Program-made: the position numbers and the translations under genes
NCBI GenBank assembly: GCA_019636755.1
Contig: JAHBWZ010000005.1
Span: 124,001-188,000, forward strand
Length of the DNA: 64,000 bases
Direction of reading: 5' to 3'
Origin: Phycisphaeraceae bacterium
Lineage (GTDB): Bacteria; Planctomycetota; Phycisphaerae; Phycisphaerales; SM1A02
The notes under the pieces: model-generated
Databases searched by the model: none
What the model was told of the DNA's origin: nothing
What the model saw: the letters and a program-made list of their open reading frames with translations, nothing else
Shown here: in pieces, positions 447-6,781 of the stretch
Position numbering within the stretch: the stretch's first letter is position 1
Layout: each line of letters begins with the position of its first letter

Positions 447-1013
447 TCAGCCGCAGCCGTCGCACGGACACGGCCGGTCGGGGCGGCGCCGGGTGTCGAT
501 CGGCCGGCCGGTGCCGTCGCGATCGATGGCGCAGCACGCCTCGAGGTGCGCCCGCAGTCGACGGCGGGCGCGCTGGACGCGCGACTTCAGTCCGGACATC
601 GACAGGCCGAGTTCGCGCGCCACGTCCGCCTGGGATTCTCCGAGCATGTCGATGCGCTGCAGGATGCGCCGGTCCTCGCGGCCGAGCGACTCGAGCATCG
701 GCTCCATGCAGCGCGCCAGCTCCGACGAGGCGGAGGGGTCATCGGCAAGGTCGATGATCGCGATTGAGTCGATCGAGTCGCCGGCCGGGGTCGATCCGGA
801 GGTCCTGGCCCGGTCGATGATCGTGCGCCGCGCGACGGTGAACAGCCATGCATACACGGAGCCGGCGCTGATGGCGTCATCGTGCTGCACGAACTTCGTC
901 AGCACATCCTGCACGATGTCTTCGGCGTCATGGGCGGACCGCACCCGCCTCCGGACGAAGGCCCGGAGGCGGGTGAGGAACTCGGTCGTCAGCGCGGCGC
1001 CGTTCGTGGTCAT
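447..1013 (-). CDS. ECF RNA polymerase sigma factor, SigZ-like, with cysteine-bearing C-terminal tail
   Basis: A 188-residue ECF sigma factor. Region 2 covers roughly residues 8-70 and includes the AEDIVQDV helix and a WLFTVARR motif. Region 4 is at about 108-155 with a GLSMSGLKSRVQRARRRL recognition helix. The protein does not stop there: it continues with CC at 160-161 and ends in CPCDGCG (Cys 182, 184, 187), as in SigZ-type factors, where tail cysteines may sense metal or redox state (inference). It is the second gene of a pair: its ATG lies 3 nt after the stop of the DUF2703 lipoprotein gene. No anti-sigma gene of the usual type is adjacent, so the lipoprotein or the sigma tail itself may provide control. 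Confidence 0.88.
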   Translation of the reverse strand: MTTNGAALTTEFLTRLRAFVRRRVRSAHDAEDIVQDVLTKFVQHDDAISAGSVYAWLFTVARRTIIDRARTSGSTPAGDSIDSIAIIDLADDPSASSELARCMEPMLESLGREDRRILQRIDMLGESQADVARELGLSMSGLKSRVQRARRRLRAHLEACCAIDRDGTGRPIDTRRRPDRPCPCDGCG

Positions 1014-1016
1014 GCG

Positions 1017-1721
1017 TCAGCCCGTGCAGCCGCAGGCCGCGCCGCCGGCGGCGGCGTCGGTGCCGCAGCACGCCGCCTTGTCGTCCGCCTCGCAGCAGGT
1101 CGCCCGGTCGCAGCAGTCGGCACGCCCGGCTCGCGCGCTGCTCCGGGACCGGGCGTCGAAGAACGCCCGCAGGTTCTCCGGCAGCCGGAACGCCGCGCGC
1201 GATCCGGCGGGTCCGGGCTCCCACGCGCGACCATAGGCACGGAGAATCGCGTCGATGATCATGGCCTTGGGCGCTTCGACGTGCTCCCGGCCCCGCCAGA
1301 CCCAGACGCGGCAGTCGACCTGGCCCTCGCAGCCGCAGAGGTCGCCGCAGTCGCCGCAGCTGCTCTCGCGCAGCTCCAGGGCGATGTCGCGGCCGTTGAT
1401 GCGGATCGTCGGCGAGGACTCGAATTGCAGCTGTTCGGCCTGTGCCGCGGAGGTGACGACGGTCCGGCGCACGTCCACCTCGACATCCGCCTCGCGCAGC
1501 ACATCGGTGACGGCGGCGATCGCCAGGTCGAGGTTCGCGCTGGTGCCGGTGCATCGGCCGCAGGTGTCGAGGTCGAGTGCCAGCAGTTCGATGGTGAGGG
1601 AGCGGGTGTCGAGGGGTCGGTCCGAGGTGCTTCGGGGGGTGATCATGGCGTCTGTCCGTTCGCGGTGTCCCGTGCTGCACGCCGCCAGGGCCAGCAGGCA
1701 GGGGAAAATCAGGCATCGCAT
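1017..1721 (-). CDS. DUF2703 cysteine-rich lipoprotein
   Basis: A 234-residue protein with an N-terminal signal ending in lipobox LAAC (Cys15), so probably membrane-anchored outside the cytoplasm. The DUF2703 core has a CGRC motif at 54-57 in a thioredoxin-like context and a second cysteine patch at 122-137 (C122, C125, C129, C131, C137). A low-complexity tail carries CC at 203-204, 209-210 and 218-219, then CGC at 230-232, giving 16 cysteines in the mature protein. DUF2703 genes are often found near metal or arsenic genes; the exact function is not established. The ATG at 1721 has an AGGAG ribosome site 7-8 nt upstream, which is why it was preferred over the longer open frame. It is co-transcribed with the SigZ-like factor 3 nt downstream. 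Confidence 0.8.
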   Translation of the reverse strand: MRCLIFPCLLALAACSTGHRERTDAMITPRSTSDRPLDTRSLTIELLALDLDTCGRCTGTSANLDLAIAAVTDVLREADVEVDVRRTVVTSAAQAEQLQFESSPTIRINGRDIALELRESSCGDCGDLCGCEGQVDCRVWVWRGREHVEAPKAMIIDAILRAYGRAWEPGPAGSRAAFRLPENLRAFFDARSRSSARAGRADCCDRATCCEADDKAACCGTDAAAGGAACGCTG

Positions 1722-2081
1722 GGGGGGGCTCCTGTTCGCACCCGGAGAGACGGACGGTCCCTCGAATGGACGCATGGATTCTGCCGCCGGATCGCACGCC
1801 GGGCCGGGTATCTCCGCCGGGAGGGCCGGAGGCGGCGGCCGGTGCCGCGGCCGTCCGGCGCCCGGGGTGGTGCGCCACCCCCGCGCCGCGCCGATGGTCG
1901 ACGCGCTCGCATGCACCGGCCGCGGGAGCACCGGCGATCGCGCCGCGTTCAGAGCCCGGCGCTGACCGGACGCCGGCGGCACGACGCGGCCGCGCACCGG
2001 ACCACGGCCCGCCTGCCCGAGGACCCGCCCGGTGTCCGCCGCCCGGGGGACTGCGGGGCGCCCGGGCGCGCCCGGACGCGA
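1722..2081. other. Intergenic region between DUF2703 and prolyl oligopeptidase genes
   Basis: About 360 bases without a convincing gene. Both flanking genes are on the minus strand, so the part next to 1721 should hold the promoter of the DUF2703/sigma operon. Apart from the AGGAG before the ATG no clear -10/-35 pair is visible. Near 2050-2080 a GC-only palindromic stretch (GGGCGCCCGGGCGCGCCC) could form a hairpin after the oligopeptidase stop, but it has no following T-run. Open frames here are shadows. Confidence 0.4.
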
Positions 2082-5054: not shown

Positions 5055-6781
5055 CATCGGAACGACGACCGGCAGGCGGCAGCGGCGGTTCAGGCGGGGG
5101 CGTGCTCGATGTCATCGAGCGCGTCGGGAACCGGCTGCCGGACCCCACGATGCTCTTCCTCATCGGGATGGTGCTCGTGATGGTGCTCTCCTGGATTGCC
5201 GTGCAGCAGCAGTGGTCCGTGGAGCAGATGCTGCCGCGCGTCGTGGAGACGGCGGACGACGGCAGCGCGGTACAGTGGGAGCCGACCGGTCGCGTGCTGC
5301 GGGCGAAGAGCCTGTTCTCCTCCGAGGGCCTCTTCTGGGCGATCCGGAGCATGAAGGACAACTTCATCAGCTTCGCGCCGCTGGGCGTGGTCCTGGTCGG
5401 GATGCTCGGGATCGGCGTCGCGGAACGGAGCGGGCTGATCGCGTCGCTGCTCAAGGGATTCATGATGCTCGTGCCCGGCGTGCTGCTGACGCCGGCGATG
5501 GTGTTCATCGGGATCATGTCGTCCATGGCGATGGACGCGGGATACGTCGTCCTTCCGCCGCTGGCCGCCGCGCTCTACAAGGCGATCGGTCGTCCGCCGC
5601 TGGCGGGACTCGCCGCCGTCTTCGCGGGCGTCGCCGCCGGGTTCAATGCCAATCTCTTCGTGACCGGCCTGGATCCGATGCTGGCCGAGCTTTCGACGCT
5701 CGGTGCGCGGTCCGTCGACGCGGACTACCAGGTGGCGGCCACCTGCAACTGGTGGTTCATGATCGGTTCGACCATCGTCATGACGCTGACCGGGTGGGGC
5801 GTGACGTCGTTCTTCGTCGAACGGCGCCTCGCCCGCAAGAGCGTGGAGGAGGGCGGGCCGGCGCCCGCGACGGACGATGATCTCTCCGCGCAGCGGCTGA
5901 CCCGGGTCGAGAAGCGGGGGCTCCGCGTGGCGCTCGTGACGATCGCCGCGCTGATGGTGCTGCTCGGCGTCCTCATCACCGTGCCCGGATCTCCGCTCTA
6001 CACATTCGAGATTCCCGGCCCGGACGGCCAGCCGGGCGTCAGCGCGGAGCGATGGATTCCGCCGGTTGCCGATGCGGCGCCGCCCGCGGGCGCCCAGCTC
6101 GTCGACGGCCAGTGGCTGGTCCCGCTGCGTCCGCCCTTCCCGAAGTGGGTGATCGCGATCGTGCCGCTCATCTTCCTGGGCTTCGTGATTCCCGGGATCA
6201 CCTACGGCGCGGCGACGGGATCCATCCGGTCGTCGAAGGACCTGGCGACGATGTTCACCGAGTCGATGGCGAACATGGCGCCGATCATCGTGCTGGCGTT
6301 CTTCGCCGCGCAGTTCATCGAGCACTTCCGCTGGTCAGGCCTGGACACGATGCTCGCGACGGCGGGCGGCCAGGCGCTCGGGCAGGCGGCGCTGCCGACG
6401 CCGGTCCTGCTCGTCGCGTTCGTCCTGCTGACCGCGGTCTTCAACCTCTTCGTGGGATCGATGTCGGCCAAGTACACGATGTTCGCGCCGATCTTCGTGC
6501 CGATGTTCATGATGGTCGGCATCAGTCCGGAACTGACGCAGGCGACGTACCGGATCGGCGACTCGGTCACGAACATCGTGACGCCGCTCAACGCGTACCT
6601 GGTCATCATCCTGGTGTTCATGCAGAAGTTCGTGCCGAAGGCGGGCATGGGGACGCTCATCTCCACGATGCTGCCGTACACCATCGTCTTCGGGATCGTG
6701 TGGATGCTCCTGCTCCTGGCGTGGTACTGGCTCGGCATCCCGCTGGGGCCGGGCGGGCCGCTCGCATACACGGGCTCCTGA
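5051..6781 (+). CDS. AbgT family transporter
   Basis: A 576-residue inner-membrane protein with about a dozen hydrophobic segments. It starts with an N-terminal NRLPDPTMLF segment and ends with the AbgT signature blocks SVTNIVTPLNAYLVI and GTLISTMLPYT. AbgT proteins move p-aminobenzoyl-glutamate, and characterised homologues (MtrF, YdaH) are proton-driven sulfonamide exporters. The start overlaps the asparaginase stop by ATGA and the end overlaps the next ATG by TGATG, so the three genes are probably translated together. A roughly 60-residue hydrophilic loop after the seventh segment (PGSPLYTFEIPGPDGQPG onward) is also present in the second AbgT paralog at 60.4-62.4 kb, with a different sequence. 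Substrate unknown. Confidence 0.92.
   Translation: MTSERRPAGGSGGSGGGVLDVIERVGNRLPDPTMLFLIGMVLVMVLSWIAVQQQWSVEQMLPRVVETADDGSAVQWEPTGRVLRAKSLFSSEGLFWAIRSMKDNFISFAPLGVVLVGMLGIGVAERSGLIASLLKGFMMLVPGVLLTPAMVFIGIMSSMAMDAGYVVLPPLAAALYKAIGRPPLAGLAAVFAGVAAGFNANLFVTGLDPMLAELSTLGARSVDADYQVAATCNWWFMIGSTIVMTLTGWGVTSFFVERRLARKSVEEGGPAPATDDDLSAQRLTRVEKRGLRVALVTIAALMVLLGVLITVPGSPLYTFEIPGPDGQPGVSAERWIPPVADAAPPAGAQLVDGQWLVPLRPPFPKWVIAIVPLIFLGFVIPGITYGAATGSIRSSKDLATMFTESMANMAPIIVLAFFAAQFIEHFRWSGLDTMLATAGGQALGQAALPTPVLLVAFVLLTAVFNLFVGSMSAKYTMFAPIFVPMFMMVGISPELTQATYRIGDSVTNIVTPLNAYLVIILVFMQKFVPKAGMGTLISTMLPYTIVFGIVWMLLLLAWYWLGIPLGPGGPLAYTGS

Follow-up and report, generated by a model that had tools for sequence, protein, structure and literature searches.

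A SigZ-like sigma factor and a putative DUF2703 lipoprotein in a predicted one-promoter operon of a Phycisphaeraceae bacterium, with arsenicals as a candidate signal

Among the closest described counterparts of the sigma factor considered here are CorE and CorE2 of Myxococcus xanthus (ECF44/ECF238), which carry a C-terminal Cys-rich, metal-regulating extension (PMC8999054, PMC3107203) and respond to copper and to cadmium/zinc, respectively (PMC8999054), the Cys-rich tail of CorE controlling the copper response (PMC3107203). Our sigma factor likewise ends in a Cys-rich tail, but its cysteines are arranged differently, the CXC of the CorE-like sigma2-sigma4 linker is absent (residues 73-103 hold one Cys, C102), the predicted promoter reads TGCGTCC-N15-CGTC whereas CorE is reported with an AAC-containing -35 element (PMC3107203), and the gene context among its relatives is one of arsenic, not copper or cadmium. 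A second point of comparison is provided by the ArsR-controlled ars operons, which share with the relatives of our sigma factor a probable arsenical signal and the effectors ArsM, ArsI, ArsP, and ACR3; those systems rely on a repressor, whereas at the SigZ-like loci the regulator is a sigma factor that may carry its own sensor and that has a promoter dedicated to it. DUF2703 proteins are also encoded in ars operons. On a Peptoclostridium plasmid the gene lies between arsR and acr3, near arsC, and in Rhodococcus aetherivorans BCP1 a DUF2703 gene was induced by arsenate, by under 10-fold (PMC6514093). Such ars-operon proteins, including that of BCP1, have a CXXC motif like ours, which differs from them in being a predicted lipoprotein with a CC-rich tail and in accompanying an ECF sigma factor instead of ArsR. 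The best family match of our sigma factor, at nearly full length, is SigZ (TIGR02959/NF007215; Bacillus subtilis SigZ). The literature searched yielded no function, ligand, or promoter for SigZ, no match for an arsenite methyltransferase with an ECF sigma factor, and, for SigZ together with arsenic, only work that appeared unrelated; the ECF reclassification literature may hold a group number or an earlier remark.

The locus lies in the window, a stretch of 64,000 nucleotides (positions 124001-188000 of its contig) from a host genome of 4.11 Mb in 20 contigs. Both genes lie on the minus strand, that of the predicted DUF2703 lipoprotein (1721-1017) first and that of the SigZ-like ECF sigma factor (1013-447) second, with a gap of 3 nt (1014-1016) between them; this confirms the two ORFs, their coordinates, and the 3-nt spacing given in a preliminary description. 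The operon is flanked upstream by a prolyl oligopeptidase gene and downstream by a partial, convergent ARMT1-like gene; no anti-sigma gene was found on either side of the sigma gene, and no arsenic enzyme gene was found within the operon. The reading of both genes as one operon with its own promoter is well supported. The predicted features are as follows.

1747..1774, minus strand: predicted ECF promoter of the SigZ-like family (-35 TGCGTCC at 1774-1768, 15-nt spacer, -10 CGTC at 1752-1749)
1729..1733, minus strand: ribosome-binding site AGGAG, 7 nt 5' of the lipoprotein ATG (sequence inspection)
1017..1721, minus strand: DUF2703 lipoprotein gene, 234 aa (translation; PF10865, E 2.4e-26), with a CC-rich tail
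1677..1688, minus strand: candidate lipobox LAAC, residues 12-15, with predicted lipidated Cys15 (by eye)
1245..1598, minus strand: DUF2703 domain, probably thioredoxin-like, residues 42-159 (Pfam, AlphaFold2 model)
1551..1562, minus strand: CGRC redox-type motif, residues 54-57, kept in relative L047, in a low-confidence part of the model
1311..1358, minus strand: Cys cluster C122-x2-C125-x3-C129-x-C131-x5-C137, four of five Cys kept in L047 (not C131)
1026..1115, minus strand: metallothionein-like CC-rich tail, residues 203-232, resembling the L048 peptide and the L285 CC-rich lipoprotein
447..1013, minus strand: SigZ-like ECF sigma gene, 188 aa (Sigma70_r2, E 4.6e-13; Sigma70_r4_2, E 1.2e-9; TIGR02959, 136 bits)
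798..986, minus strand: sigma region 2, residues 10-72 (Pfam)
555..704, minus strand: sigma region 4, residues 104-153 (Pfam)
450..536, minus strand: C-terminal Cys tail, proposed metalloid sensor, residues 160-188 (CC, predicted beta-hairpin, CPCDGCG)

Both of the top-scoring NCBIfam models for the sigma factor were SigZ models, at 136-138 bits and under their curated cut-offs (136.1 bits against 168.65 for TIGR02959), and the protein is therefore termed SigZ-like. The TIGR02959 alignment joins residues 11-176 to profile positions 3-167 of 170, the tail after region 4 included. Translation bears out the tail as first described, with CC at 160-161 and CPCDGCG at 182-188 (C182-P-C184-D-G-C187-G); five of the six Cys fall within the last 30 residues, a concentration that 20,000 composition-preserving shuffles reached at a frequency of 0.0003. 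When the tails were aligned, the check that had been proposed, C160, C161, C182, and C187 were invariant in 18/18 sequences, these being our own and 17 relatives, taken from among the best matches after their tails had been seen and with weaker tail-less matches (L033, L035, L036) omitted. For broader comparisons we used 46 SigZ-like loci chosen without regard to their neighbours (17 picked after tail inspection, plus 29 that make up the full set of matches at E 1e-30 or better from two further phylum samples) and 76 controls (L051-L126), which are other ECF genes from mixed phyla, not phylum-matched. Some loci bear several names (L007=L047=L132=L155; L029=L049=L144; L010=L158; L008=L156; L009=L157), L017-L032, L034, and L041 are short forms of L133-L149, and L028 is the window's own locus, also L001 and within L225. 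The expression CC...C-x(1,5)-C matched 21 of the 46 SigZ-like loci, with variants in others; the tail is real, as the preliminary description had it, but it is common to many SigZ-like factors and not peculiar to this pair. The six phylum relatives above the SigZ cut-off have CC and later Cys, while in another phylum the CC...CxxC tail is absent from some of the proteins that pass the cut-off (e.g., L208, the same as L179). An ArsP-linked SigZ subgroup from a Paraburkholderia-centred sample (L208-L211, L213-L218, L220-L222) is likewise without it, 10 of its 13 members ending in ...VCCFVPR; since this subgroup has an arsenic context and, in 6 of the 13, the promoter, the tail is not the family's only mode of working.

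Upstream of the lipoprotein gene stands the predicted promoter TGCGTCCAT-N13-CGTCT (1774-1748). A comparison of upstream regions found TGCGTCCAT with CGTC at a fixed distance in our locus, L048, L146, and L148, and a scan found the same elements, with the 15-nt spacer, at further SigZ-like operons and, in L146, in both directions of the arsM/sigma region. A matrix built from 13 sites and applied to the sigma strand over about 2.4 kb around the gene, with a threshold of at least 14, gave a site at 21 of 41 SigZ-like loci outside training against 2 of the 76 control ECF loci (L062, L073; Fisher p 5.6e-10), and at all seven training loci present in the scored set. By group, the 21 comprised 11/17 tail-bearing loci, 4/5 with variant tails, 6/13 of the ArsP-linked subgroup, and 0/6 of L197-L202. 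Six of the 17 tail-bearing loci scored under 14; three of these six, L206, L207, and L219, were also without ArsM, ArsI, DUF2703, or CC-rich ORFs, the sole ArsP-like permease ORF at L207 lying 476 nt away on the opposite strand. A second match was located within the sigma gene of L137. In a held-out set of eight new SigZ-like loci, the promoter was present in five (scores 24.2, 23.3, 24.9, 19.5, 20.2), with no other position scoring at least 13 on either strand of the held-out loci; L281, L286, and L287 were without it.

At genome scale, 13 genomes were searched with the pattern TGCGTCCWTN13CGTY, which matched 22 times, in 12 of the 13; nine of these matches fell at SigZ-like operons, and the reversed control matched five times. 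The strict pattern TGCRTCYNTN13CGTCT gave 14 matches in 12 genomes (about 71 Mb; 9 of 12 with a match), of which 11 lay at SigZ-like loci, and its reversed control gave 12, eight of them in genome G204 and none in the host genome; the two totals are similar, so that the location of the matches is telling and not their number. The same sites went into the design of both patterns; the independent test comes from the held-out set. In the host genome, the strict pattern matched exactly once, at the window operon. The looser pattern's second host match (C1:695069), 184 nt before the gene of a predicted 228-aa protein with one Cys, is not matched by the strict pattern, is probably due to chance, and was rejected as a regulon member. 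A GAAC/CGT-type ECF promoter was also sought in the 369 nt preceding the lipoprotein gene, without a match. The host carries an ars operon, arsR-arsC/arsM-acr3, on a different contig (L224, C17:92000-106000), and its control by the SigZ-like sigma factor was rejected, as L224 has no site scoring at least 14 and carries its own arsR. At 4899-7888 of L224, arsR is followed by a 507-aa ORF fusing an ArsC-type low-molecular-weight phosphatase (PF01451 at 27-153) to ArsM (methyltransferase at 305-455), and then by acr3.

When considering the genes near these sigma factors, ArsM was found within 4 kb at 11 of the 46 SigZ-like loci (9 of the 21 tail-bearing ones) and at 0 of the 76 controls, and ArsI at 5/46 and 0/76; any ars marker occurred at one control (ArsC, L076), the markers counted being those of arsenic, with no copper, zinc, or mercury marker, which makes the comparison one-sided with respect to other metals. 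The gene first behind the promoter was arsM in L137, L146 (in reverse), L195, L196, and L205, with NF008823 above its cut-off in L137, L146, and L195. It was ArsI/CadI-like in L050, L149, L203, and L204; NF041414 was above its cut-off in L149, L203, and L280 and below it in L050 (105) and L282 (89), the cut-off being 116, and in L212 the gene picker gave a short fragment only, an ArsI-like ORF being present. Other first genes encoded an ArsP_1 permease (L208), a TolC-type protein (L128), DUF2703 proteins (L156, L158, L223, and our own), or the sigma factor itself (L146, L148), L146 having separate promoter copies facing arsM and the sigma gene. Short Cys-rich peptides stood first in L133, L134, L136, L139, L140, L141, L143, L144, and L158; those of L133, L139, L140, L141, and L144 had no match in Pfam and/or NCBIfam. 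L138 and L142, with arsM adjacent, were judged by ORF overlap, and the L048 peptide, skipped by the gene picker, was read directly. ORFs in which a stretch of 45 residues holds three or more CC pairs occurred within 1 kb at 12 of the 46 SigZ-like loci, in five cases as the Cys-rich end of an ArsI-like protein, and at 2 of the 76 controls, where both frames look non-coding. At all eight held-out loci an ArsI, ArsM, or CC-rich ORF adjoined the sigma gene, namely ArsI-like in L280, L281, and L282, a CC-rich peptide in L283, L284, and L285, and ArsM-like in L286 and L287 (the sigma factor of L287 being without a CC tail); the partners in L281, L286, and L287 were named through phmmer markers only, and the L285 peptide, its frame missed by the picker, was read by eye. 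Plasmid relatives comprised 11 records for query P0002 and one for P0001, five of which were inspected, two being without annotation there. On Sulfuricella plasmid pSCD, the sigma relative comes after arsC-acr3-GDCCVxC-permease-arsM-trx-arsC, with three hypothetical genes between.

In a tree of 59 proteins, 46 SigZ-type sequences, tail-bearing and ArsP-linked together (rows not identical to the 46 loci of the neighbour counts), formed one side of a 100/99 branch, apart from other ECFs. Our sigma factor grouped with those of L048, L155, L146, and L148 at 98/97, where the partners are a CC peptide, DUF2703, ArsM, and none. Partner labels were clustered on the tree, with 18 changes against 40.6 when shuffled, but ArsM alone needs seven and the CC peptide six, and partner genes have therefore probably been exchanged; in this labelling, ArsP was given to all 13 rows of its group, eight of which have the permease marker, and L135 was labelled none despite an ArsI-like neighbour.

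The reading we favour, and consider somewhat probable, is that of a self-activating stress operon with one promoter, in which a metalloid is sensed through the tail and dealt with by an exported Cys-rich sink. The sigma factor's own C-terminal Cys tail (CC...CxxC) would be the sensor and would bind a thiophilic metalloid, with arsenite or methylarsenite the likeliest candidates; the bound sigma factor would then direct RNA polymerase to TGCGTCC-N15-CGTCT ahead of its own operon, giving more sigma factor and more of the surface lipoprotein (thioredoxin-like DUF2703, CGRC, metallothionein-like tail), which would capture or reduce the metalloid outside the cytoplasm and thereby damp the signal. 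Gating of the sigma factor by its own tail, by analogy with CorE (PMC3107203), is the most economical reading. The sequences themselves show the gene order, the recurring promoter motif, the conserved tail, the arsenic genes near relatives, and the interchange of partners; from these are deduced the sensing role of the tail, self-activation, and the part of the lipoprotein as a sink. Arsenic as the signal is suggested by the neighbours in other genomes. ArsM makes, ArsI degrades, and ArsP exports methylarsenicals, which would make methylarsenite as plausible a ligand as arsenite.

The same architecture might instead answer to another signal, a soft metal (Zn, Cd, Cu, Hg) or thiol oxidation, with the Cys-rich products acting as general sinks. 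Many of the Cys-rich peptide partners bear no arsenic-specific mark, the ArsI/CadI family name spans heavy-metal resistance generally, CorE and CorE2 respond to Cu and Cd/Zn (PMC8999054), and the window operon is itself without an ars enzyme. We nevertheless regard this alternative as rather unlikely, since ArsM, ArsI, ArsP, ACR3, and ArsC recur beside SigZ-like factors, only arsenic markers having been compared. The self-contained metal- or thiol-stress module proposed at first is retained in part: the shared promoter, the family-wide Cys tail, and the arsenic genes that can take the partner's place agree with it, while its generic signal gives way to a context pointing to arsenicals. The roles it gave to the lipoprotein, binding or reducing the metal outside, and to the sigma factor, sensing it inside, stay hypothetical.

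Turning to the lipoprotein, its precursor holds 18 Cys, 16 of them from the lipobox Cys15 onward, with tail CC pairs at 203, 209, and 218, CGC at 230-232, and the CGRC motif, all in agreement with the earlier account; in relative L047 the lipobox-like motif is STGC. The DUF2703 profile PF10865 was matched over positions 1-120 of 120 with 92.6 bits (E 2.4e-26; gathering score 23.6 exceeded), and the DF family (seleno)protein model NF049942 gave 49.3 bits, short of its curated cut-off of 70. The domain has been proposed to be thioredoxin-like (PMC3091736). In our AlphaFold2 model, built from two sequences, the core has mostly block pLDDT values of 68-89, with 39-57 at residues 51-60 and 121-140, and the Cys motifs and tail under 50. 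The best structural matches of the model were thioredoxin/PDI domains with middling Z scores of about 5-6, none reaching 8; Foldseek returned nothing at E 0.001, and a sequence search of the PDB gave only a weak match (E 0.17). The model agrees weakly with the published proposal of a thioredoxin-like domain. Three CC pairs arise in 13% of shuffles of this 18-Cys protein, so that what sets the tail apart is its resemblance to other tails, not the number of its CC pairs. In L048, from a Fimbriiglobus MAG, a 53-aa ORF ending ...ACCDTAACCESADKAGCCGTD...CGC lies between promoter and sigma gene, and our tail, DCCDRATCCEADDKAACCGTD...CGC, closely resembles this stand-alone peptide; the L285 product is CC-rich and lipoprotein-like but has no DUF2703, and in L158 a DUF2703 protein (lipobox-like start, Cys-rich tail) and a CC-rich peptide are encoded by two distinct genes with a promoter apiece. 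In light of these three loci, our protein appears to be a fusion of a DUF2703 domain with the regulon's CC-rich payload. L158 (C10:65000-79000) has three promoter copies in about 3 kb, at 5290, 6044, and 8307, which precede the sigma gene, the DUF2703 protein with its Cys-rich tail, and the 70-aa CC-rich peptide.

The thioredoxin-like appearance of DUF2703, in the model and in PMC3091736, would also suit a different arrangement, in which the tail holds zinc in a structural role, some other mechanism controls the sigma factor, and the lipoprotein acts as a thioredoxin-like protein on extracytoplasmic proteins. The AlphaFold2 model of the sigma factor (five sequences) places a beta-hairpin (161-165/171-176; pLDDT near 60) between region 4 and the second Cys group, a geometry that would suit zinc, albeit at low confidence. 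This arrangement would leave the arsenic gene context and the Cys-rich partners unexplained, and we hold it to be improbable.

How regularly the two genes occur together depends on the scale considered. DUF2703 was present in 15 of the 392 genomes of the phylum sample, and at four of these 15 loci (our own, L007, L008, L010) a SigZ-like gene lay within the fetched flank of at most 1.5 kb, some flanks being clipped by contig ends; other ars genes were near DUF2703 in L151, L154, and L157. A fifth pair, L223, came from the Paraburkholderia-centred phylum sample. Within our genome and 60 relatives, one other genome had DUF2703, and no SigZ-like gene stood beside it. The conserved pairing that had been put forward as a check is thus lacking among close relatives and found at phylum scale and beyond. 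A promoter-like site precedes DUF2703 in every pair (our own 24.0, L156 22.6, L158 21.0, L223 15.5, L047 13.7, the first two being training sites). Chance adjacency of two unrelated genes, which the single near relative with an unpaired DUF2703 gene might suggest, is highly improbable, as the pair recurs in L047/L155, L156, L158, and L223 with such a site each time. The unit envisaged in the preliminary description, sigma factor plus lipoprotein, is accordingly to be redrawn as sigma factor plus promoter, with an exchangeable second gene.

Together, the promoter and the arsenic-gene partners suggest a testable candidate role for the SigZ-like family. We see as evenly balanced the broader proposal that SigZ-type ECFs are a widespread arsenical-sensing class, with a sensor housed in the tail or in something equivalent to it, a promoter of their own, TGC(G/A)TC(C/T)(T/A)T-N13-CGTCT, a small and usually single-locus regulon, and a freely swapped payload (ArsM, ArsI, ArsP, DUF2703, and diverse Cys-rich peptides or lipoproteins), of which the window operon would be the form with DUF2703 and a CC-rich peptide joined as one exported sink. 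If true, bacteria would have, alongside ArsR, a path to arsenic detoxification that runs through a sigma factor, and unannotated Cys-rich peptides would gain a probable role. The promoter offers an easy means of locating more members and could be used as a component of an arsenic biosensor.

A separate ECF group, L197-L202, from a Desulfomonile MAG-centred sample, has tails that mostly read C(T/S)FE.DER.VLVC and is without the TGCGTCC promoter. Three of its six members (L197, L198, L200) lie near acr3 or arsM, so that proximity to ars genes is not unique to the SigZ-like family, and the group is possibly another ars-linked one. On Vibrio cortegadensis plasmid p1 (L127), a promoter-like site scoring 16.5 at position 2959 stands ahead of genes for a glutathione S-transferase, a 2Fe-2S protein, a GNAT protein, and sigZ, all on one strand, a context in which the SigZ-like family may serve other thiol stresses in Vibrio.
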